The position numbers were made by a program, and so were the translations under genes. A DNA stretch of 64,000 nucleotides, taken from the NCBI RefSeq assembly GCF_002443295.1, contig NZ_BAOS01000028.1:124001-188000 (forward strand). Reading direction: 5' to 3'. Below are positions 9,010 to 40,607 of the stretch, piece by piece; positions within the stretch are counted from its first letter, which is position 1; each line of letters begins with the position of its first letter. Under the pieces are notes generated by a model, which was not told where the DNA came from, ran no database searches, and saw nothing but the letters and a program-made list of their open reading frames with translations. The DNA is from Candidatus Scalindua japonica (GTDB taxonomy: Bacteria > Planctomycetota > Brocadiia > Brocadiales > Scalinduaceae).

Positions 9010-9624
9010 TTATACCTGTTCCGGACGTTCTGTACAAGGCTTATCTCCGGGACCGGGTAGCGGAGCCTTATTATTACCTCCGGCGCTCTCACCTTTTATA
9101 AGGGTTTCAATATCGGGATATGGATAAATTGTCTCTGCTTTATTCTGCATCAGACCACCGGTATCTGCAGTTGGTCCATATATGCTGTAAATATCCCTTT
9201 CTGCCATACGCAGCAGCATTGTCATCTGTCCGCGGTGGTGTGCCGTATGGGCAATCCTTCTGGTAAGAACCCAGGCTCGCGAGCGAGAAACATTAAAGAA
9301 TTTCACCTCCTCATCCCACCATGCATCATCTTTTTCACGTAGGGTTTCCAGTCGTTTGCCTGAATCCTCTGCATATCGTTTAATAAATTCCAGGCGTGTT
9401 TCCTCTTCTGGTAATGGGGGCGCACCTACATCGATTCCAAGCATATTACAGAACCACACATTCTCTCCCATACATTGATGCACCATATGTTCATGCGCGT
9501 TCCTCCCTCTTTTGTCCTGAGGATGGGGGCGTCTTGACATGTCTTCATCCTTAAATGTACTCCATGTGCTGAGTGTTTTTAAACGTTCCGTTTCATAAGT
9601 ATCAACTAAGAACCTGTGTCCCAT
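9010..9624 (-). CDS. DinB-family protein
   Basis: Putative metal-binding four-helix-bundle protein of the DinB/YfiT superfamily, which includes thiol transferases of unknown natural substrate. Seen: candidate metal ligands in HEHMVHQ (about residues 44-50) and AHTAHHRGQ (about 124-132), the characteristic HxxHHRGQ. The 204-residue protein is slightly long because of a nonconserved, Gly/Pro-rich tail. AAGGAG lies 8-9 nt before the ATG. It lies 154 nt downstream of a tetR gene on the same strand and may be under its control. The function is not known. Confidence 0.75.
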   Translation of the reverse strand: MGHRFLVDTYETERLKTLSTWSTFKDEDMSRRPHPQDKRGRNAHEHMVHQCMGENVWFCNMLGIDVGAPPLPEEETRLEFIKRYAEDSGKRLETLREKDDAWWDEEVKFFNVSRSRAWVLTRRIAHTAHHRGQMTMLLRMAERDIYSIYGPTADTGGLMQNKAETIYPYPDIETLIKGESAGGNNKAPLPGPGDKPCTERPEQV

Positions 9625-9777
9625 TCTTTCATCTCCTTAATAATGAAATCCGTAAAAATAAAAAGTAATTATCCAACACGTAGATGAAAAACTTTTTCTT
9701 CCCCTGTCACAACACGACAAGGACTTTCCTCGGGTAAAAAGCTTCAAGGTCTCTCATCGTGAGTGCTAACATTTTTT

Positions 9778-10394: not shown

Positions 10395-10743
10395 AAGGAA
10401 GAGGTTTTTACAACCTATAAGAGATTGTATTTTATGACATTGCCTGAACCAATGATCTCTTGTCTCAAATATTTTTAGCGTGGGTTTCTGTAATTAGTTT
10501 ATTGTAAATTACTCGCATAGGGTTATAATATCGACGAACTTGAGCGAACAGGTAATTGATTTTACTTGCGTTAAGAGTATAATAATACCGTAGATTACTT
10601 GAAAACACAAAAACTCTTTCGTTTTTAGTTCGGGTTAGGTTAAAATAGAGCCAACAAATTGAGAAAAAAGCTTGAAAACAAGGTAAATATGTCTACGACG
10701 GTTTCCAATAAAATAGAAAGTGCTTTGAAGGTAATGTTGAAGG
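10395..10743. other. intergenic region between tetR and the acetyltransferase gene
   Basis: A+T-rich 350-bp spacer. Apart from the operator at its left edge and a possible 21-codon ORF at its right edge I see no feature in it. Confidence 0.5.
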
Positions 10744-10754
10744 ATGGAAAATAA
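10689..10754 (+). CDS. possible 21-residue upstream ORF
   Basis: ATG at 10689, preceded by AAGG 5 nt upstream, opens a short frame encoding MSTTVSNKIESALKVMLKDG plus one Lys. It ends in TAA at 10752-10754, overlapping the acetyltransferase start by 11 nt. This geometry would permit translational coupling. There is no homology support, and it may be chance. Confidence 0.25.
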   Translation: MSTTVSNKIESALKVMLKDGK

Positions 10755-11304
10755 AATAAAGCTTACTGACGGAAATATTTTCATACGTCCTTGCCAACCG
10801 GAAGACGCTGCCGTAATTTGCGAGGGTGTGCAAGAGACGATGGGAGAGATGTTAAAATGGGCACCATGGTGTCACCCTGAGTACTCTATATCAGACTGTA
10901 AATCGTGGCTTGACTCCAGACAGGAGATGTGGACGGAAGGTGTTGAATATGATTTTGCTATTTTTAGTGCTAAAGAGAATACTTTTTTTGGTGGATGCGC
11001 CATTGATCAAATTAACCGGAAACACAACTTTGCAAATCTTGGTTATTGGACCAGAGCAAGTCAGGTGGGAAATGGAATAGCTACTTCTGCGGTCAAGCTT
11101 ATCAGTCAGTTTGGATTTGAAACTCTGGGTTTCACGCGTCTTGAGATTGTCGCGGCAGTGCGGAACAAGGCAAGTCAACGCATTGCTGAAAAGGTTGGAG
11201 CTGTCAGGGAGGGTATCCATAGAAACCGTCATGTAGTACGTGACAAGATATATGACTCCGTTATGTTTTCGCTAATTCCAAAGAATTGTCAGGCACCGAT
11301 TTAG
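10744..11304 (+). CDS. GNAT-family N-acetyltransferase (RimJ/RimL type)
   Basis: Acetyl-CoA-dependent acetyltransferase of 186 residues. Seen: the RimJ/RimL layout, with IFIRPCQPEDA at the N-terminus, the beta-4 segment NLGYWTRASQVGNGIAT carrying the acetyl-CoA loop, and the C-terminal LEIVAAVRNKASQRIAEKVGA motif in which residues contact CoA. The substrate may be a protein N-terminus or a small molecule and cannot be inferred. AAGG is close to the ATG, and a 21-codon ORF overlaps the start. Neighbours are a small ORF and a hemerythrin-like gene in the same direction. Confidence 0.88.
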   Translation: MENKIKLTDGNIFIRPCQPEDAAVICEGVQETMGEMLKWAPWCHPEYSISDCKSWLDSRQEMWTEGVEYDFAIFSAKENTFFGGCAIDQINRKHNFANLGYWTRASQVGNGIATSAVKLISQFGFETLGFTRLEIVAAVRNKASQRIAEKVGAVREGIHRNRHVVRDKIYDSVMFSLIPKNCQAPI

Positions 11305-11426
11305 AGTCTATTAAATTGCTCAAATTAGCTTGAAATTGATGTTATCTACAGTACAATGAAGTGAACAAAGATAACAAAAAGAACGAACTAATTCGTATGA
11401 TACAAAAATATAGAAAGGAGTTTCAA

Positions 11427-11615
11427 ATGAAAATTTCAATGGAAAGTGATACCAGGATAAAAATTATTCCGGAATCAGAGCATGAGAAAGAGAGCCTTGA
11501 TGCATTATGGAAGCTTGTCATACGTTGTGACACTGATAGTAAGGTATTGTGCCCTATCGGTTCGTACATACCTTCAACAGATGACGGGGCAAACTTTGTT
11601 ATACAGGACCAATGA
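11427..11615 (+). CDS. small hypothetical protein (62 residues)
   Basis: Unrecognised soluble, acidic protein. The frame is open from 11361, but the start is set at the ATG at 11427. AGAAAGGAG precedes it by 5-6 nt and the upstream 22 residues are strongly basic and low-complexity. The sequence contains two Cys (VIRCDTDSKVLCP) and a run that reads like a short beta-rich domain. It is codirectional with the acetyltransferase upstream and the hemerythrin-like gene downstream. No function is assigned. Confidence 0.55.
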   Translation: MKISMESDTRIKIIPESEHEKESLDALWKLVIRCDTDSKVLCPIGSYIPSTDDGANFVIQDQ

Positions 11616-11733
11616 TCCTTTGTACGCATGATAATACAGTAATTTGAAGGCGGTTTTAATAAATAACTCAAATCATTACTTCTAAAAGAGAAATTGAAAT
11701 CTGGCGTAATTCTAACAGATCAGGAGAAAAGAG

Positions 11734-12147
11734 ATGTCAATACTGATTGAAGAACTTAAAAAGGAACATTCTGAAATCCTTGCCAAACTCGAAGAAGTAA
11801 AAGAACTGGGTATTCTCTCTAAGGAGGGGCAAGATAAACTGATGTCTTTAGAAGTGAGTTTACTTGCACATCTAGGTATAGAGGATGATCAACTATACCC
11901 GACTCTCAAAAAAGAAGCTGAGCATAGCAATAGTATAAAAGATACATTAGATCTGTTTGAAATGGATATGGAGAATGTATCAACCATTGTGCAAGGCTTT
12001 TTTGAAAAATATTCTGAAGGATTTTCAGGTATGGATCTCGATAAACTTTCAGAAGATTATGAAAATCTTCTCACTGCCCTTACAAAAAGGATCAGTAATG
12101 AAGAAGAATCTCTCTATGAGGAATATGAAGCCCTGAACAGGCCTTGA
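11734..12147 (+). CDS. hemerythrin-like HHE-domain protein
   Basis: A 137-residue, all-helical protein resembling the hemerythrin/HHE cation-binding family, whose di-iron site binds oxygen or helps sense or repair nitrosative damage. Seen: KKEHSEI near the N-terminus, then LLAHLGIEDDQLYPTL, and near the C-terminus RISNEEESLYEEYE. These match the H...HxxxEDxxLYP...RIxxEExxLY pattern of the family. The last helix lacks the usual His, so the metal site may be atypical. CAGGAGAAAAGAG just before the ATG is a good ribosome binding site. The fold family is fairly sure; the role is unproven. Confidence 0.75.
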   Translation: MSILIEELKKEHSEILAKLEEVKELGILSKEGQDKLMSLEVSLLAHLGIEDDQLYPTLKKEAEHSNSIKDTLDLFEMDMENVSTIVQGFFEKYSEGFSGMDLDKLSEDYENLLTALTKRISNEEESLYEEYEALNRP

Positions 12148-12276
12148 ATGTCTTAAAAATAAGTAAGCCAGGAGAGTTTATAGAAACCATTCCATTCAAC
12201 TGAAAAAGTACTTTTCCCTGAAAGACATCAACTCCCTCCAAAATACAGCCTGGTCCTGTAACCTTTAATCAGAAAA

Positions 12277-13236
12277 ATGAAAGGGTTCGATATAGACAAA
12301 TATGAACCGATAACTGATGCCGAACATGTCAAATACAATAGACAGGATTATTGCGGCTTCTGGAGGCGTTTTGCTGCCAACTTCCTGGACGGAGCAATCC
12401 TGGGTATGGCGTATAAATCAGTAGATGTCGTATTGCTGGCACTAGCTTCTTTAACAGGGACCTCTTATCTCGGGTTCAGCGACTGGATGTTGAGTACAAT
12501 AATCTTCTGGGCATATATGCTATGGTTTAAGAGTTACAGGGGTGCCACTCCCGGTTACAATGTCTTTGGGATTAGAATTATCTCTATAAAAGGTTCGCAG
12601 GTAAGTATCAAACAAATAGTAGTTAGAACAGTTTCCTCTTTCTTGTCCGCAATACCACTAGGATTGGGTTATCTCTGGATAGCTATAGACCCTGACAGAC
12701 AAGCATGGCACGATAAGATTGCGGGGACTTACGTCATTAAGGCTGAATCAAGACCAGTTCAAACCAATCAGCAACCTAGTCCCGGCCCGGTGAGGATAAA
12801 ACTGTTAACATCGCTGATTATAGTGTGCTTGCTTATGCTTCTCAGTTTGATTGCAGGAGTAGTGTATCTGCTGAAGGATTCTGATGCATATAAATTGTCT
12901 AAACAATACATAGGTGCAAACATGTGGGTGCAACAGGAGGTTGGTAATACAATCGAGTTTGGTATAATAGAAAGCAGTAAGGTTTTTAATGGAGCATCCG
13001 GAAAGGCAAATCTAATAATACGTGTTTCAGGTGAAAAAGGGGAAGTTACGGTTACCACAAGACTGGAAAAAAGAGATGGTGAATGGCAGATCATAAAAGC
13101 TGGATACTTTGATAGTGATAATAATTATATTGATATTACTATGCCATACACCGGAAGCAAGGTGCTTGAGGTGAGAAAGTCAAGCATTTCTATACGTTTT
13201 GTGCATATGTACTGTTCGACATATGCACCGAGCTAG
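12277..13236 (+). CDS. RDD-family membrane protein with C-terminal Coa1-like domain
   Basis: A 319-residue membrane protein in two parts. Residues about 25-155 form an RDD domain: FWRRFAANFLDGAILG carries the Arg and Asp for which the family is named, two to three helices follow, and RQAWHDKIAGTYVI closes it. After a linker, a further membrane helix (about 168-198) leads into an extramembrane domain. The pattern VQQEVGNTIEFG...GKANLIIRVSGEKGEVTV...GEWQI resembles Coa1/Tim21-like domains. RDD proteins have been linked to ion transport, but their chemistry is largely unknown. It lies 30 nt before the triheme cytochrome gene, so the two may be cotranscribed. The RDD assignment is firm and the C-terminal one tentative. 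Confidence 0.8.
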   Translation: MKGFDIDKYEPITDAEHVKYNRQDYCGFWRRFAANFLDGAILGMAYKSVDVVLLALASLTGTSYLGFSDWMLSTIIFWAYMLWFKSYRGATPGYNVFGIRIISIKGSQVSIKQIVVRTVSSFLSAIPLGLGYLWIAIDPDRQAWHDKIAGTYVIKAESRPVQTNQQPSPGPVRIKLLTSLIIVCLLMLLSLIAGVVYLLKDSDAYKLSKQYIGANMWVQQEVGNTIEFGIIESSKVFNGASGKANLIIRVSGEKGEVTVTTRLEKRDGEWQIIKAGYFDSDNNYIDITMPYTGSKVLEVRKSSISIRFVHMYCSTYAPS

Positions 13237-26792: not shown

Positions 26793-27149
26793 GAAGCTTA
26801 TCCATTAGTTACATAACCTTGACCAGATGTAATGTGGCTTCGATTTGCAATAACGGATGTTGTCCCAAACAAACCCGGTATGGGTGCCATTACAATTGTT
26901 TTACCTGTAGGATTAGCTTTGAGTACCGTAAAAAAAGAAGTAACCGAAAAATATACCGGCGTTGGAGAGGTATCAATAGAAGTGGAGATACTTGCTTCTT
27001 TGACCAATGAACGAATTGGTGTCGCAATAGACAGGAGACCGGGTGGAAAAATAGAAGGTTTCACCAAGTGGGGAGCTGTAGAAACAGCTTTTGAATTTTG
27101 GGCAATGAGGTTGAGGACCTGGTTAGACGAGACACGCGGCAGGGAATAA
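26793..27149 (+). pseudogene. DUF3313-like lipoprotein remnant
   Basis: The frame reads EAYPLVT-stop-P-stop-PDVMWLRFAITD and then runs open to 27149 (105 residues from the ATG at 26832). The PDVMWLRFAITDVVPNKPG and VEILASLTNERIGVAIDRR segments look like the second half of DUF3313-type lipoproteins. Coding similarity continues upstream of the ATG, across in-frame stops at 26814 and 26820 and another at 26790. The N-terminal half with its lipoprotein signal is missing. I therefore read it as a truncated, nonsense-broken gene. The family assignment rests on remembered pattern only. Confidence 0.5.
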
Positions 27150-27223: not shown

Positions 27224-28589
27224 ATGAAGAAGCGAGATATGGGGAGTAAACAGATAAAACATTACAACAAAGTATCTATCCACAGGATACTGGCCACAAG
27301 GCTTGCTATAGCAGGTATAATAATCTCTTTTATCCTTGGAGTAGCAGTACTACTCATAGAACGTAATAAGGTTGGTGAGGTAGTACTCGACCGTGCACTT
27401 CAGGCAACCGTTCATTTTAATGCAGAAGCTGGTTCTTTACTGGACGAACCCGGCTTGCCAGACCACGAGGGAATACAGCGCGTACTTGATAATGTTATTT
27501 CGCGAGGTGTGAAGCTACGCAACAGTCGTTATGGAAAGGTAGGACATTCTGTCTTTATTGATATCTTTGATCTTGATCAGAACAAAGTAGCAAAATTTCT
27601 TGATAGTAACCATGAAAATATTAAAACGGTTGAGACACATATGCATTCCTCTCAATCACCGCTTTCTTATAATAAGGATTGGTATGATCTAATCAGGATC
27701 AAAGGAAATCCTTATATTAAATTCGGCGTGCCTCTTACTAACAGCAATGGAGAAAAAGTTGCTAATATAGTAGGAGCGTTTGCTGTCTCCTCAGAAGTAG
27801 TAGCAGACTTTAGATGCAGAGCTTTAAAGACTACCTTAATCATCATCTCTATTGTTCTTGTAACAACCGGACTGTTATATCCAGTAATAATTAAATTAAT
27901 GAATAGACTTACCAGGCTGAATTACAGACTTTTAGATTCACAATTGGAAACTCTCAAGGTCTTGGGAAGTGCAATCGCGACACGTGATTGCGATACTGAT
28001 GCGCATAACTACCGTGTAGTAATTTACTCTGTGCGACTTGCAGAAGCTGCTGGACTCGATAAGAACAATATTCGAACCTTGATTAAGGGCGCTTTTTCAT
28101 GATGTAGGAAAGATTGGCATAGCTGATAATATTCTTCTTAAACCCGGTAATCTTACAGACAGTGAATTCGATATCATGAAAAGCCACGTCACACAGGGTC
28201 TACAAATATTAGAGCAGTCAGAATGGTTGAAGGATGCTGGAGAAGTCGTTGGCAGTCCCCATGAAAAGCTGAATGGCGATGGCTATCTTAATGGACTTAG
28301 CGGAGGAAGTATTCCTTTTACAGCCAGAATATTTTCCATTGCAGATGTTTTTGATGCATTGTGTTCCAGACGCCCATATAAGGAACCTTTTACATTTGAA
28401 GAGACAATGAAGATAATCCGTGAGAACACTGGAAACCATTTTGATTCAGTGTTAATAGATATTTTTTGTACTATTGCCAGATCACTCTATGAAGATTATG
28501 CTGGCCGTGAAGATGATGTTATTAAAATAGAAGTTGATAGAATAATTCAAAAATATTTTCTAGGGAACAATAATATAATATTAGACTAA
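27224..28589 (+). pseudogene. HD-GYP-type sensor protein, frameshifted in the HD motif
   Basis: The first frame (27224-28102) encodes a membrane helix, a periplasmic sensor domain and a second helix. It then enters an HD-GYP domain (LGSAIATRDCDTDAHNYRV). At about 28096 the expected ...GAFLHDVGKIGIAD is broken: GGCGCTTTTTCATGATGTAGG lacks two bases, and the domain continues in another frame to 28589 (HDVGKIGIADNILLKPG, KSHVTQG). Other key positions are also degenerate: the usual HHE is PHE and GYP is GYL (SPHEKLNGDGYLNG). HD-GYP proteins normally hydrolyse cyclic di-GMP. Here the break falls on the HD metal ligands, so the gene is very likely dead. Confidence 0.8.
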
Positions 28590-29207: not shown

Positions 29208-30518
29208 ATGATGACAAAAAAAGTTCGAGTTACAGCAGTGTTTGGACTCCTGACTTTATTGATAGTGTGGCTTCCTGCCTGTCAAACATACAATCCGACA
29301 CCGTTGGAAGAAGTATCCTTCCTCCAACGCTCACAGACTAAGGCCGTTGGAGGATTAACGGTGACTGCGGCAGTTCTCTCACATGAGGAGAGCGAGCAGA
29401 TATTCGGCAGGCCGCTGGCAGAGAAGGGGATCCAGCCGGTTTGGCTGGAGATTAAAAATGGTGAAGAATTACCGTATTTCCTCATCTCCCGGTCACTCGA
29501 TCCAACATATTTTTCCGCGTCCGAAGTGGCATATATGCACAGGGTGGCAGGCAAAAAAACAAATAAGAGAATTGCTGATGATTACAGAAAACTGGCCATT
29601 GATATCCGCATACCTTCGGGGGAGACAATGTCAGGTTTTGTATTTGCGCGGTTTGATCTAGGAACAAAGGTTGTTCCTGTTGTCCTGTTCGGGCCGCAGC
29701 AGGTCAGGTCAGTTGTTTTCTACATTCCTGTTACCGGTTTTAAAGGCGAAGATAAAGATATTGATATTGACAATCTTTATAAGCAGGGTCAGATTGTCAT
29801 GTTTGAAGAAGAGGAAACATTTCGAACAAAGCTTGCCGGTTTCCAATGCTGTTCACGTGACGAAAGTGATAGTAACGATAATGTACCTCTCAATGTTGTA
29901 TTGATTGGAAATCGCAATGTGATACATGATACACTCTCCAGGGCTGGATGGAAGAAACCCGGAGCTTTCTCGTTTTCAACATCGCTTAAAACAGCAGAAG
30001 CTTTCTTTTCGGGTGAGTTTCCGCTAAGTATACCAGCCACACCGCAATATCTCTTCGGCCGTGAACAGGATATATCACTACATAAAGGACGTGACAGCTT
30101 ACACAATCGTAACCGTCTGAACCTCTGGCTCTCCCCATGGATATTCAAAGGTCAGAACGTATGGATTGGTAATATCAGCCGTGATATTGGTATTAAACGA
30201 AAGCACAAATCATTGAACCTTGCAAACAAAATTGACCCGGATATTGACAATGCTTATTATTACCTTTTTATGGATGTTATGATGGTTCAGGGACTAGCTA
30301 AATTTGGGGTCGTCAAAGGCATGGGTAAATCCTCACCGGGAACCCCGGGAAAAACATTGTCTGGCAACCCGTACTGGACTGAAGGCAAACGTGCAGTACT
30401 ACTCTTGTCAGATGATCGAATAGCCATGAACAAGGTTGATTTTTTTAATTGGGATTTTGCCAAAAGTGTAAAAGCGGCGATACAAAAACTGGAACAGAAA
30501 TATACAGAGAAAGAATAA
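29208..30518 (+). CDS. LssY C-terminal-domain lipoprotein, copy 1
   Basis: Predicted lipoprotein of 436 residues. The signal segment ends WLPAC (lipidated Cys at about 25). A conserved N-terminal domain (LTVTAAVLSHEESEQIFGRP) is followed from about residue 240 by a region resembling the LssY C-terminal domain (PLNVVLIGNRNVIHDTLSRA, then LNLWLSPWIFKGQNVWIGNI and SRDIG). The start is set at the ATG at 29208. The frame is open from 29142, but those codons lie in the repeat and spacer; 29196 and 29211 are alternatives. The stop overlaps the start of a paralogue (TAATG), so the two are cotranslated. LssY relatives are linked to membrane lipid processing or type II export, but the function is not established. 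Confidence 0.75.
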   Translation: MMTKKVRVTAVFGLLTLLIVWLPACQTYNPTPLEEVSFLQRSQTKAVGGLTVTAAVLSHEESEQIFGRPLAEKGIQPVWLEIKNGEELPYFLISRSLDPTYFSASEVAYMHRVAGKKTNKRIADDYRKLAIDIRIPSGETMSGFVFARFDLGTKVVPVVLFGPQQVRSVVFYIPVTGFKGEDKDIDIDNLYKQGQIVMFEEEETFRTKLAGFQCCSRDESDSNDNVPLNVVLIGNRNVIHDTLSRAGWKKPGAFSFSTSLKTAEAFFSGEFPLSIPATPQYLFGREQDISLHKGRDSLHNRNRLNLWLSPWIFKGQNVWIGNISRDIGIKRKHKSLNLANKIDPDIDNAYYYLFMDVMMVQGLAKFGVVKGMGKSSPGTPGKTLSGNPYWTEGKRAVLLLSDDRIAMNKVDFFNWDFAKSVKAAIQKLEQKYTEKE

Positions 30519-31846
30519 TGTCAATGAAGTTTGTACAAATAGAAATTACAATACAAAGTTTGACGGCTGTTATTATGCTTGTTCTGATTTCTGCCTGCGG
30601 AACATATAATCCAATACCTATTAATGAAGTAAATTTTCATCAACGCTCACAGACTAAGAAAGTTGGCAAGTTGACGGTGACAGCATCGGTGCTATCACCC
30701 AAAGAGAGCAAACAGATATTCGGCAGACCGCTGGCAAAGAAAGGGATCCAGCCCGTATGGCTGGAGATTATAAATAACGAAGATACCCCGTTTGCCATTA
30801 TCGTTATAGCTATTGACCCAAAATACTTTTCTTCCACAGAGGCGGCAGAAATTAATAGGGTGTCGGATAAAGACAAAAATAAGCAAATGGAAGAGGATTA
30901 CAGAAAGTTGGCCCTTGACATACTCATAAATCCGGGGGAAACAGAGTCAGGTTTTGTATTTACAAACCTCGGTTTTGGCACCAAGGTAGTGCCAGTTGTC
31001 ATGTTTGGCCCGAAGCAGGTCAGAACAGTTGTTTTCTACATACCTGTACCTGGCATTAAGGCCGACCATATGCGCGTTAATTTTGATGATCTATACCAAC
31101 CGGAGGAATTCATTAAATTTGATAAAGAAGAGGATTTTCGCGCAAAACTCTTTGATTTCCAATGCTGTGCACGAAACGAGAAGGATACCAAAGACGGTGA
31201 TCCTCTTAATATTGTACTGGTCGGAAGGCCGGATTTGATATACGGTGCTCTTGCTCGTGCCGGATGGGACGAAACAGAAGCAGTCACATTTTCTACCGGC
31301 TTAAAGATGGCAAAGGCATTCATTACGGGCAATATGTACTTGAACGCCCCGATCAGTCCCCAATATGTATTTGGCAGGGCTCAAGATATTGCTCTCCAGA
31401 AGGGGCGAGATTCTGTTAATGAGCGTAACCATATGCGTCTCTGGCTTACGCCATGGATCTTCTGTGGTATGTCTGTCTGGATTGGACAAATAAGCCGCGA
31501 TATAGGTATTCGGATGACAACAGGCGTATGGAACCTTACGACTCATGCGGTTGACCCGGAAGTGGACGACGCTCGCGACTATCTGATAATGGACGTCATG
31601 GCTGTACAGGGCCTAACTAAGCTGGGTATGGTTGAAGGTGTTGGTGCTGCCACACCTGAAAAACCCCGTGAAATTATCCTCGGAGACCAGTACTGGACGG
31701 ATGGGCTTCGTGCAGTGATGCTTTTTTCGGAGGAACCGGTGGCTATGGACGAGATTGAATTCTTCATTTGGGATTTTCGCTTAAAAGAGGCAAAAGAGAT
31801 TATTGAAAAGCTGCAAGAGGAATCTGCTTCAAGGAATTTTGAATGA
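30518..31846 (+). CDS. LssY C-terminal-domain lipoprotein, copy 2
   Basis: Paralogue of the preceding gene, 442 residues, with the same layout: a lipoprotein signal ending LISAC, then LTVTASVLSPKESKQIFGRP, and a C-terminal PLNIVLVGRPDLIYGALARA...LWLTPWIFCGMSVWIGQI region. The two agree strongly over the whole length, so this is a tandem duplication of the entire gene. The frame is open from 30449, but the start is placed at the ATG at 30518. That ATG shares one base with the upstream stop and leaves a signal peptide at the N-terminus. The role is unknown; the pairing suggests a heteromeric or dosage function. Confidence 0.75.
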   Translation: MSMKFVQIEITIQSLTAVIMLVLISACGTYNPIPINEVNFHQRSQTKKVGKLTVTASVLSPKESKQIFGRPLAKKGIQPVWLEIINNEDTPFAIIVIAIDPKYFSSTEAAEINRVSDKDKNKQMEEDYRKLALDILINPGETESGFVFTNLGFGTKVVPVVMFGPKQVRTVVFYIPVPGIKADHMRVNFDDLYQPEEFIKFDKEEDFRAKLFDFQCCARNEKDTKDGDPLNIVLVGRPDLIYGALARAGWDETEAVTFSTGLKMAKAFITGNMYLNAPISPQYVFGRAQDIALQKGRDSVNERNHMRLWLTPWIFCGMSVWIGQISRDIGIRMTTGVWNLTTHAVDPEVDDARDYLIMDVMAVQGLTKLGMVEGVGAATPEKPREIILGDQYWTDGLRAVMLFSEEPVAMDEIEFFIWDFRLKEAKEIIEKLQEESASRNFE

Positions 31847-31967: not shown

Positions 31968-32585
31968 CTACTTAATCTGTTTTTCTCTACTCATTGATTG
32001 TGCAATGTGAATACCGACCAATCTTGCAATCAGTATGGCTATATAAAGCTGTCCTGTAACAGCCTCAAGAAATGAGAAGGTATTTGCCAGATCCGTTGTG
32101 GGAGTTATATCTCCGTAACCCAGTGTTGTGATAGTAACAAAACTGTAGTAAATATAAAGGCGTCTGCCTGCCTCGATTTGAGCTTGTCCTGTGGCAAAAG
32201 ATCCCGGGTGAATACTCTCAACAACTGAATAAACGAACGCCCACATTATGGCAATGAGCAGATAAACAACAATTGACGCATAGATAACATTGATTGTAAC
32301 TTCGCGTTCGTTGAATATGAAAGACAGGATAACTACTATCAGAAAAACCAGAAATGCTATTACAAAGCAATCTCCCACGAAAATCAGAAAAGGTATATCT
32401 ACAAATCGGTTTAGCCAGATTGAGACGAGCATTGGCAAGGCAAGCGATGCAGCAATGATGGCAATATAGGTTTTCCTGCTTGCAGCGTAGGTTCCGAATA
32501 TCAAGGTAGTCGTAAAAAATACATCCATCAGGACACGAATACCTATAAAGTCCTTAAAGATGGGTGAGATAACCAGCAGGCACAA
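31968..32585 (-). CDS. two-TM potassium channel family protein
   Basis: Membrane protein with about four N-terminal hydrophobic helices and a C-terminal pore module. The pore helix and selectivity filter TTLGYGD lie at residues 153-159, and a last helix (GQLYIAILIARLVGIHIAQS) follows. It likely conducts K+ across the inner membrane; no cytoplasmic RCK domain is present. The 205-residue frame begins at a TTG. Protein-like sequence FKDRFLFLLIS continues in frame upstream with no ATG before a stop near 32675. The true start may be another rare codon, for example an ATT a few bases after a GAGGG at about 32655-32660. Confidence 0.82.
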   Translation of the reverse strand: MCLLVISPIFKDFIGIRVLMDVFFTTTLIFGTYAASRKTYIAIIAASLALPMLVSIWLNRFVDIPFLIFVGDCFVIAFLVFLIVVILSFIFNEREVTINVIYASIVVYLLIAIMWAFVYSVVESIHPGSFATGQAQIEAGRRLYIYYSFVTITTLGYGDITPTTDLANTFSFLEAVTGQLYIAILIARLVGIHIAQSMSREKQIK

Positions 32586-37293: not shown

Positions 37294-39336
37294 ATGAATC
37301 ACAATAATGATATTTCCGTGGCAATGACCATCCAACTCGAAGAGATATTTAATCAATTACCCCAAATGCCTGATTTTGTTAAAGGTGTCAGGAGGGCTCC
37401 CAAAAGGGAGTTTACTTTATCCCGGAAAGAGACGGGACTCGCCTTAAAAAATGCGCTTCGCTATACCCCCGAAAAATGGCACGCAGGACTGGCACCTGAA
37501 TTTCTAGAGGAGCTACTTTCTACAGGAAGGATTTATGGATACCGTTTCAGACCGAAAGGAAAGATAGCCTCTAAACCGGTTGATCAATACAACGGTAACT
37601 GCATAGAGGGGAAAGGGTTTCAGGTAATGATCGATAATAATCTTGATTTTGATATCGCACTTTATCCTTACGAACTGGTTACCTACGGTGAGACGGGACA
37701 GGTGTGTCAAAACTGGATGCAGTACAGGCTTATCAAGAAATATCTGGAAGAGTTGACGCGAAATCAGACGCTGGTCATCGAATCAGGCCATCCGGTCGGT
37801 CTATTTGAATCCGCACCTGAGTCACCACGGGTGATAATTACCAACGCCCTCATGGTGGGCTGCTTTGATGATCAGGAGAGCTGGCACAGAGCATCAGCAC
37901 TTGGTGTTGCAAATTACGGCCAGATGACAGCTGGTGGATGGATGTATATCGGGCCGCAGGGTATTGTTCATGGCACATACAGTACTATCCTGAATGCCGG
38001 AAGATTGAAACTCGAAATTGCAGAAGATAAAGATTTACGAGGACGTCTGTTTGTATCTTCCGGCCTTGGCGGAATGAGCGGTGCGCAGGGCAAAGCGGTA
38101 GAGATTGCCAATGGTGTCGGCATCATTGCTGAGGTTGATTATTCAAGAATCCAGACAAGGCACGAACAGGGCTGGATTGGCAGGATTGCTCATGATCCGG
38201 CGGAAGCATTCAATCTGGCGAAAGAGTATCAACAGAAAAAAGAGACCCTGTCAATTGCATTTTACGGAAACATTGTAGACCTGCTGGAGTATGCCGTAAA
38301 TAACAGTATTGCCATTGACCTGTTATCCGACCAGACCTCATGTCACGCAGCTTACGAAGGTGGGTATTGCCCTCAAGGTTTGTTCTTCGAAGAGCGCACA
38401 GAACTACTAAAGACGGATCACACAAAATTCAAGGAATATGTAGATCGGTCGTTAAAGCGTCACTTTCAATTGATAAAGACTATGGTAGATAGAGGGGTAT
38501 TCTTTTTTGATTATGGAAACAGCTTCTTAAAGGCGGTATTTGATGCTGGCGTTAAAGAAATCTGCAAAAACGGTAAAGATACAACCGAGGGATTTGTCTT
38601 TCCCTCTTATGTCGAAGATATCATGGGGCCGGTTTTATTTGATTATGGATATGGCCCGTTTCGATGGGTTTGCCTCAGTGGAAAGAAAGATGAACTCATC
38701 AAGACCGATAAAGCGGCCATGGAATGCATAGACCCAAACGCAAGATTCCAGGATAAAGATAACTATATCTGGATCAGAGATGCAGAAAAACATAACCTTG
38801 TTGTAGGTACACAGGCAAGAATATTATATCAGGATTCCGCGGGTAGAATGAATATTGCACTCAAATTCAATGAAATGGTCCGTAATGGAGAGGTTGGACC
38901 GGTGATGATTGGCAGAGACCATCACGATACTGGAGGTACCGACTCGCCATTCAGAGAAACGGCAAATATAAAGGACGGCAGTAATATTATGGCAGATATG
39001 GCTACACAGTGTTTTGCAGGAAACGTTGCAAGGGGTATGAGCCTGGTCACACTTCACAACGGCGGTGGCGTCGGTATTGGAAAGGCGATAAACGGTGGTT
39101 TTGGGCTCGTACTGGACGGAAGCAAGAGAGTAGACAACATCATCCGACTGGCAATACCCTGGGACGTCATGGGCGGTGTTGCAAGGAGAAGCTGGGCAAG
39201 AAATGAGAATTCGATTGAAACCTGTATCAAGTATAATATTGAACGTATAGGGAGAGATCACATTACGCTCCCTTTTATTGCAGATGATAAACTCGTGGAT
39301 AAACTTGTTTCAAACGCATTTGAGAAAAACATATGA
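37294..39336 (+). CDS. hutU: urocanate hydratase (urocanase)
   Basis: Second enzyme of histidine breakdown: converts urocanate to imidazolonepropionate using tightly bound NAD+ as an electrophile. Seen: the NAD-binding SSGLGGMSGAQGKA region (about residues 250-265), and near the C-terminus the ATQCFAGNVARGMSL and HNGGGVGIGKAINGG motifs. At 680 residues it belongs to the long urocanase type, about 120 longer than the E. coli/Bacillus type. The ribosome binding site AAAGGAAAAGGGA is good. It overlaps hutI by 4 bp (ATGA). Confidence 0.95.
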   Translation: MNHNNDISVAMTIQLEEIFNQLPQMPDFVKGVRRAPKREFTLSRKETGLALKNALRYTPEKWHAGLAPEFLEELLSTGRIYGYRFRPKGKIASKPVDQYNGNCIEGKGFQVMIDNNLDFDIALYPYELVTYGETGQVCQNWMQYRLIKKYLEELTRNQTLVIESGHPVGLFESAPESPRVIITNALMVGCFDDQESWHRASALGVANYGQMTAGGWMYIGPQGIVHGTYSTILNAGRLKLEIAEDKDLRGRLFVSSGLGGMSGAQGKAVEIANGVGIIAEVDYSRIQTRHEQGWIGRIAHDPAEAFNLAKEYQQKKETLSIAFYGNIVDLLEYAVNNSIAIDLLSDQTSCHAAYEGGYCPQGLFFEERTELLKTDHTKFKEYVDRSLKRHFQLIKTMVDRGVFFFDYGNSFLKAVFDAGVKEICKNGKDTTEGFVFPSYVEDIMGPVLFDYGYGPFRWVCLSGKKDELIKTDKAAMECIDPNARFQDKDNYIWIRDAEKHNLVVGTQARILYQDSAGRMNIALKFNEMVRNGEVGPVMIGRDHHDTGGTDSPFRETANIKDGSNIMADMATQCFAGNVARGMSLVTLHNGGGVGIGKAINGGFGLVLDGSKRVDNIIRLAIPWDVMGGVARRSWARNENSIETCIKYNIERIGRDHITLPFIADDKLVDKLVSNAFEKNI

Positions 39337-40607
39337 AAGGTAATGTAATAATCAAAAACGCCTCCCAGCTTGTAACCTGCAGTGGGTTTCAGGCTAAACA
39401 GGGGGGAGATATGTCCGAGTTACATATAATTAATGATGGAGCAGTGGTTATCGAAAAAGGGGTAATAACGGCTGTCGGCAAGTCCGGGGAGGTTTTGGAA
39501 AAGTTTACTGAAACAGAGTTCGATACTATTGATGCAACGGGTAAGGCTGTTTTACCCGGATTTATTGATTCCCATACCCACTTTGTCTTTGGTGGTTATA
39601 GAGCTGAGGAGTTTTCCTGGCGACTGGGTGGAGAAGATTATATGGAGATAATGAAACGAGGCGGTGGTATTGTTGCAACAGTAAATGCTACTCGGGAAGC
39701 ATCCAGGGAAGAGTTGATAGTGTCGGGGAGAAAACGTCTTGATTCAATGTTGTCATTTGGTGTTACTACTATTGAAGGAAAAAGCGGCTATGGGCTGGAT
39801 GAAAAGACAGAGATAAAGCAGCTGGAAGCCATGGTTGAATTAGACAAACATCATCCTGTGGATATTGTCAGGACTTTTCTTGGGGCACATGCGGTCCCTG
39901 AAAATTTTAAAAACAGAGAAGAGAAATTTATTGACTACATGGTAGACAATGTAATGCCACAAGTCGTCGATAGAAACCTTGCTGAATTTTGTGATGTTTT
40001 TTGCGAGAAAGAGGTATTCTCGGTAGAACAGTCAAGGCGGTTACTAACTAAAGCAAAAGAGTTTGGGTTTAAGTTGAAAATACATGCAGATGAAATCTTT
40101 CAACTTGGCGGCACTGAACTGGCAGCTGAACTTGGCGCGATTTCAGCCGACCATCTGCTCCATGCTTCTGACAAGGGCATTGCTGAATTGGCAGATGAAG
40201 GTGTTGTAGCTACACTTCTACCGGGAACAGCATTCAGTCTGAAGGAGTCATATGCTAAAGGAAGAAATATTGTTGATCAGGGTTGTGCGGTAGCGCTGGC
40301 AACAGATTTTAATCCTGGGAGTTGTCACACTGAATCGATACCACTGATTTTTGTTCTGGCCACTCTTTATACTGGCTTAACAATAGAAGAAGCGGTTACC
40401 TCATTAACGATAAATGGGGCTGCGGCAATTGACAGAGCAGATAAGGTAGGAAGTGTTGATGTGGGAAAATTCGGGGATCTAATAATCCTGGAATTTCCGT
40501 CATATAAATTTATCCCTTATCATATCGGTGTCAGTTGTGTGGAAAAAGTTATTAAAAACGGTATAATTGTATTTGATAAAGCAAATAAATCATGTTATCA
40601 GAACTGA
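39333..40607 (+). CDS. hutI: imidazolonepropionase
   Basis: Amidohydrolase-superfamily enzyme, 424 residues, opening the imidazolone ring to give formiminoglutamate. Seen: the metal-binding HTH in FIDSHTHFVFGGYRAEEF (about 80-97), the substrate-side RGGGIVATVNATR, the metal His in LKIHADEIF and the metal Asp in ATDFNPGSCHTESIP. The start overlaps the hutU stop by 4 bp, and its 3' end overlaps the cyclodeaminase gene by 16 bp. The three genes are therefore one tightly coupled operon. Confidence 0.96.
   Translation: MKGNVIIKNASQLVTCSGFQAKQGGDMSELHIINDGAVVIEKGVITAVGKSGEVLEKFTETEFDTIDATGKAVLPGFIDSHTHFVFGGYRAEEFSWRLGGEDYMEIMKRGGGIVATVNATREASREELIVSGRKRLDSMLSFGVTTIEGKSGYGLDEKTEIKQLEAMVELDKHHPVDIVRTFLGAHAVPENFKNREEKFIDYMVDNVMPQVVDRNLAEFCDVFCEKEVFSVEQSRRLLTKAKEFGFKLKIHADEIFQLGGTELAAELGAISADHLLHASDKGIAELADEGVVATLLPGTAFSLKESYAKGRNIVDQGCAVALATDFNPGSCHTESIPLIFVLATLYTGLTIEEAVTSLTINGAAAIDRADKVGSVDVGKFGDLIILEFPSYKFIPYHIGVSCVEKVIKNGIIVFDKANKSCYQN

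Follow-up and report, generated by a model that had tools for sequence, protein, structure and literature searches.

The closest described systems that have a domain in common with the proteins reported here are LssY of the Legionella lssXYZABD locus, which we take from the Pfam name to carry LssY_C (PF14067), and long membrane proteins that join LssY_C to VTT_dom and PAP2, an architecture seen in relatives and not in Legionella LssY itself. We know of no biochemical activity for LssY_C. A table entry for LssY in a publication dealing with the Legionella locus carries no function (PMC6959600), and a functional study of the domain was not found in the literature searched, to which most subscription journals do not belong. 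The 64,000-nucleotide stretch of Candidatus Scalindua japonica DNA analyzed here (the window) encodes two proteins, A (P0001) and B (P0002), that contain LssY_C but are without VTT_dom and PAP2 in Pfam scans; they have instead a lipoprotein-like N-terminus and an N-terminal domain (N-domain) of predicted Ig-like fold.

The initial annotation had described the two genes as coupled, full-length LssY_C paralogues meeting at a TAATG junction, and both open reading frames and the junction were confirmed (Table 1). The stop codon of A and the start codon of B have base 30518 in common, a one-base overlap, and A may start at the ATG at 29208 or at the one at 29211. The proteins are identical at 228 of 436 aligned residues (52%), with 100/154 identities in the N-domain and 112/214 in the LssY_C part. 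The LssY_C matches of A (E 5.2e-33, 114.7 bits) and B (E 1.4e-42, 145.8 bits) far exceed the curated cut-off, which is 25 bits. Pfam gave no other match to either protein at E<=0.1 and NCBIfam gave none; a named family covering the whole protein, which the annotation had named as refuting its reading if it had a known role, was thus found in neither collection. The source genome has three LssY_C genes, the two in the window and one on another contig (C4), and this last copy has one in-frame TAG and is adjoined by an intact DUF3313 gene.

Table 1. Positions of the gene pair, its domains and selected neighbors in the window.
Feature	Position	Strand	Basis or remark
LssY-lipoprotein A (P0001), 436 aa, degenerate partner	29208..30518	+	ORF, Pfam, motif states
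LssY-lipoprotein B (P0002), 442 aa, canonical partner	30518..31846	+	ORF, Pfam
TAATG stop/start overlap at the A-to-B junction	30516..30520	+	
Signal-like N-terminus of A, ending ...VWLPAC (Cys25)	29208..29282	+	Pro at -2 atypical for a lipobox
N-domain of A, predicted Ig-like sandwich	29283..29744	+	aligned to the model of B
LssY_C domain of A, residues 219-394	29862..30389	+	PF14067
Ala-Asn in A at the family's Thr-His position	30222..30227	+	
Signal-like N-terminus of B, lipobox LISAC (Cys27)	30518..30598	+	
N-domain of B, residues 28-181, predicted Ig-like sandwich	30599..31060	+	
LssY_C domain of B, residues 219-396	31172..31705	+	PF14067; fold model covers residues 196-418
Thr342-His343 of B	31541..31546	+	present in every unpaired N-domain homologue scored
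Remnant of a DUF3313 gene, upstream of the pair	26823..27146	+	PF11769; stops inside a longer match
Ion_trans_2 channel gene, facing the pair	31968..32585	-	

Both N-termini have a hydrophobic stretch leading up to a Cys that is invariant in a 14-row alignment (A2). The lipoprotein signal that the annotation had assigned to each protein fits in B, where LISAC matches the usual lipobox pattern; LPAC of A, with its Pro at -2, falls outside that pattern. Because its Cys is nevertheless conserved, A is likely to be lipidated as well, a prediction that is not secure. A and B are probably membrane-anchored proteins.

The N-domain (approximately residues 28-180) is conserved and contains the stretch LTVTA-x-VLS-x-x-ES. 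It had been set down as a domain not recognized, and no Pfam model covers it; its fold, however, is not unfamiliar, as the structure prediction that the annotation had proposed returned a predicted Ig-like sandwich. The AlphaFold2 model, built on alignment A2, has a pLDDT of 77.9 and a pTM of 0.66, with high confidence across most of residues 31-180. Among solved structures it is best matched by YcdA of B. subtilis (PDB 4r4g), with Z 8.0 and 2.9 A over 107 residues; PCuAC, arrestin and YjhA come next (Z 6.9-7.4). A Z near 8 may reflect no more than a common sandwich arrangement. A SopD match to the N-domain of P0002 (E 0.075) was below the cut-off and was taken as chance.

Lipoproteins consisting of the N-domain only are present in other anammox genomes and in further genomes, and five of them were linked to the window N-domain by hhalign at 93.8%. 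DUF4352 matches one such relative (L047) weakly, at 16.1 bits and under the Pfam cut-off of 25.9, and does not match the window N-domains at E<=10. By eye, the N-domain-only lipoproteins have a glycine-rich insert in mid-domain, which is glycine-zipper-like in L047 (1411-2202), L048, L072, L074 and L111, and a hydrophobic insert is seen at mid-N-domain in G239, G706 and G782.

LssY_C modeled alone (P0002 residues 196-418) gave a pLDDT of 84.3 and a pTM of 0.83. A Foldseek search with this model found no PDB match with E<=0.001. In structural comparison by Z score the best matches were 4.8 (an AMPK regulatory fragment) and 4.3 (BamC), and by sequence no solved relatives were found at E<=10. Since the AMPK, BamC and KA1-like rows were weak and tied, we claim no fold for the domain despite the good model. 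Polar residues that do not vary among eight diverse members include, in the numbering of B, R287, D290, R303, H305, R307, D328, T342, H343, D350, R353, T394 and D395. At those twelve positions A has R, D, R, R, N, D, A, N, D, Y, T and E; compared with B, it has lost His305, Arg307, the Thr-His pair and Arg353. The A-type partner at locus L013 (genome G019) has lost only Thr-His among the twelve. Because of this residue conservation we infer an intact site in B, one that may bind a ligand or turn it over, with a lipid or its headgroup as a candidate.

In each of the 11 pairs examined, tandem or fused, exactly one partner was without Thr-His, a canonical-plus-degenerate composition that the initial annotation had missed. 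These are the pairs of the window, L012, L013, L014, L017, G648 and G1138 and of four Burkholderiaceae (C. metallidurans CH34, P. terrae, C. zhejiangensis and P. caribensis MBA4), and they are not mutually independent, with origins numbering at least two. Motif states were scored in 71 distinct LssY_C variants after three incomplete rows had been dropped; the Burkholderiaceae set was scored afterwards, and L019, which ends before the motif, was left out. Unpaired genes with the N-domain kept Thr-His in every case (21/21; 20 from the 71-variant set and one from the later set), as did 27 of 27 distinct rows with neither N-domain nor VTT, which were sorted by eye and mostly have one transmembrane stretch. 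The long LssY forms had Thr-His in none of ten cases and kept the His in six; Pfam, run on eight of the ten, found VTT_dom in all eight and PAP2 in five (L069, L070, L107, L108 and L141). Since these VTT-fused forms are also without Thr-His, its loss is not tied solely to pairing.

The pattern was first seen in the window type, L017 and G648, and all pairs found later (G1138 and the four Burkholderiaceae) conformed to it. The new pair of G1138 came from a further search of 398 genomes, in which full-length matches were found in two, G1138 and G418 (the L017 genome). A tblastn search against plasmid records returned 50 records, eight of them with >=80% coverage, including Cupriavidus metallidurans, Paraburkholderia and Caballeronia. 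Five of these eight were inspected: four carry pairs, all conforming, and Thiodictyon has a single, canonical gene. The other three (H3, H4 and H6) were left out of the pair count. Pairs of the anammox and L017 types begin with the degenerate unit, and those of the type represented by G648 and the Burkholderiaceae begin with the canonical one. In G648 both units are fused in one frame of 854 aa, the degenerate half of which is sister in the tree to the degenerate proteins of those Burkholderiaceae-type pairs that are not fused. Stop and start codons overlap by four bases in L012, L014, L017 and all five Burkholderiaceae-type pairs, including G1138; at L013 the two genes are 265 bases apart, without overlap.

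That one partner per pair is without the most conserved part of the domain suggests that the two proteins work as one unit. We put at about even the chance that A and B are two subunits of one envelope complex, one with an intact and one with a lost LssY_C site. Each protein would be lipid-anchored and would face the periplasm, with the Ig-like N-domain serving to position the protein or to bind a partner. LssY_C would carry the conserved polar site, and as B retains this site and A has lost it, A is proposed to be a structural or regulatory pseudo-subunit of B. The overlap of stop and start codons may keep A and B in step. Coupling and the natural fusion suggest an A-B complex, although they do not prove one.

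The degenerate partners arose more than once. In a 44-row tree the degenerate label requires three changes, and 0% of the 200 bootstrap trees could be explained by a single change. A constraint uniting the 11 degenerate rows was rejected (p-AU 7.33e-64), so the origins are at least two and perhaps three. Three origins are not secure, as holding L017_A together with the Burkholderiaceae-type group was not rejected (p-AU 0.173; 0.0325 in a smaller set). Omega was estimated by the Nei-Gojobori method for A and B across four Brocadiales genomes (four comparisons), and was 0.17-0.22 over the whole ORF and 0.21-0.32 over LssY_C for A and 0.13-0.23 and 0.10-0.20, respectively, for B. In the Burkholderiaceae type it was 0.11-0.19 for canonical and 0.14-0.24 for degenerate partners (ten comparisons each, most of them with high dS). 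With an omega of about 0.2, the degenerate partner is subject to purifying selection.

These values bear on whether the locus is a plain duplication under relaxed constraint, in which A would be a decaying or neofunctionalized copy adjoining B and the two would have no joint function. Decay is seen in the family, both in the C4 copy with its in-frame TAG and in G015, where the second copy is present only as fragments. We nevertheless regard such a duplication as unlikely, since four Brocadiales genomes carry an intact A with an omega near 0.2, pairs that arose at least twice have lost the same motif, and the genes remain adjacent and mostly overlapping. At locus L015 the fragments of the second LssY lipoprotein gene (9257-9762) stand behind the intact one and are followed by a transposase-like ORF (by eye), and it looks as if decay has reduced a pair there to one gene.

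The nearest named records are from Candidatus Scalindua, Candidatus Anammoxibacter and a Candidatus Brocadiaceae bacterium, which places the window in an anammox member of the Brocadiales. Of 62 genomes of this order, 6 have full-length matches, and the tandem pair was found again in G004, G009 and G019, with arrangement and order conserved. Beyond the Brocadiales, homologues occur in Binatota, in proteobacterial MAGs and in cultured Burkholderiaceae; the phylum-level genome draws overlap in many genomes. A viral origin was rejected after a scan of viral_contigs found no relative, and a defense role was set aside after PADLOC gave no match for P0001, P0002, the FGPR lipoprotein described below or DUF3313.

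Brocadiales neighbors of LssY lipoproteins include DUF3313, an FGPR-motif lipoprotein (FGPR is our own label for a lipoprotein family without a Pfam match), an MscS-type channel and an Ion_trans_2 gene. Genes for MscS-type channels lie beside the pair or single copy at L012, L013 (a fragment), L014 and L016, and an Ion_trans_2 gene adjoins the pair in L012 and L014 as it does in the window. Non-anammox G420 has an FGPR gene and an MscS gene with LssY pieces, spread over two contigs, and the fused gene of G648 has an MscS gene at a distance of about 5.6 kb. Such neighborhoods would suit A and B as accessory lipoproteins in an envelope module of osmotic or mechanosensitive function, where the pair would serve an MscS-type channel and the lipoproteins that accompany it, with LssY_C as a binding module and no enzyme. 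We judge this improbable, however, because no MscS or FGPR gene was found within the window itself and because other neighbors appear elsewhere, among them the GxSxG lipoprotein of Burkholderiaceae-type operons. At 8 of 20 non-Brocadiales loci (L064, L079, L080, L081, L082, L083, L113 and L114; Pfam on three) the LssY gene is adjacent to, or one gene from, an NMT1_3-type binding protein, which we take to be a TAXI protein.

Both DUF3313 genes of the source genome are near LssY_C genes, intact at the C4 copy and broken about 2.1 kb before the pair. Elsewhere the gene is 5-9 kb off on the same contig in G004, G009 and G015, on another contig in G016 and absent from G019; overall it occurs in 5 of the 6 Brocadiales genomes that encode full-length LssY lipoproteins versus 22 of the other 55 searched. 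DUF3313 was set aside as a co-inherited partner, the link being one of proximity.

The five loci L152-L155 and L157, of the Burkholderiaceae type, have a third lipoprotein-like gene of one family directly 3' of the pair. The same family is found directly 5' of the fused gene in L078 (G648) and near the single copies in L079 and L080. This distribution, and the fusion of LssY_C to VTT_dom and PAP2 elsewhere, could indicate that the pair and a serine hydrolase of the envelope act together, with lipids or esters as their targets, LssY_C being the part that handles the lipid or headgroup. A GYSKG (GxSxG) motif was read in L153 and L154, but the Cutinase and Abhydrolase matches of the third gene are both sub-cutoff and no homologue of it was found at the Brocadiales loci examined, and we consider this very unlikely. 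Taken together, the neighbors point broadly to the cell envelope and agree on no single process. The neighborhood survey that the annotation had proposed found the pair again in unrelated bacteria, in surroundings that differ between groups.

Several further features of these loci were observed. An FGPR-/NYNEA-like lipoprotein family without a Pfam match (L012 1434-2639 and 5421-6611, L016 99-1271 and L019 2097-3245) adjoins LssY lipoproteins in anammox and non-anammox genomes. Near the Ca. Scalindua pair at L012, a 763-aa protein with repeats near its start (10561-12852) matches neurotransmitter-gated ion channels in both their ligand-binding and their membrane domain. In the window, an RND-type gene was recognized by eye upstream of the pair, and a sensor-like N-terminal ORF (27224-28102) and an HD_5 ORF (28176-28589) look like one HD-GYP gene split over 27224-28589. 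Urocanate hydratase-like and imidazolonepropionase-like genes at 37294-40607 (by eye) may form a cluster for histidine use, which is not expected in an anammox bacterium.

Beyond the proposal that A and B form one complex, we advance tentatively, and consider rather unlikely, the wider reading that LssY_C is an undescribed envelope enzyme or ligand-binding domain whose lipoprotein form is repeatedly an obligate pair of active and inactive partners, evolved more than once and spread over organisms ranging from anammox bacteria to Burkholderiaceae. LssY_C is widespread, and the pairs mark residues that matter and supply a built-in negative partner. Because pairs are present in cultured Burkholderiaceae (e.g., Cupriavidus metallidurans CH34), the function of the domain can be tested in hosts that, unlike anammox bacteria, can be grown and manipulated.

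The initial annotation had known of no description of a lipidated LssY_C form. The form is not unique: it is spread over several phyla, and RefSeq lists its Burkholderiaceae members as 'LssY C-terminal domain-containing protein'. Among solved structures, YcdA of B. subtilis, a putative Ig-like lipoprotein, resembles the window N-domain in predicted fold, with an identity of 13%. The RefSeq pairs of Paraburkholderia terrae and Caballeronia zhejiangensis have the same layout of N-domain and LssY_C, in tandem and overlapping, with one canonical and one degenerate partner and about 40% identity to P0002, but differ from the window pair in having the canonical gene first and the third lipoprotein-like gene after it.
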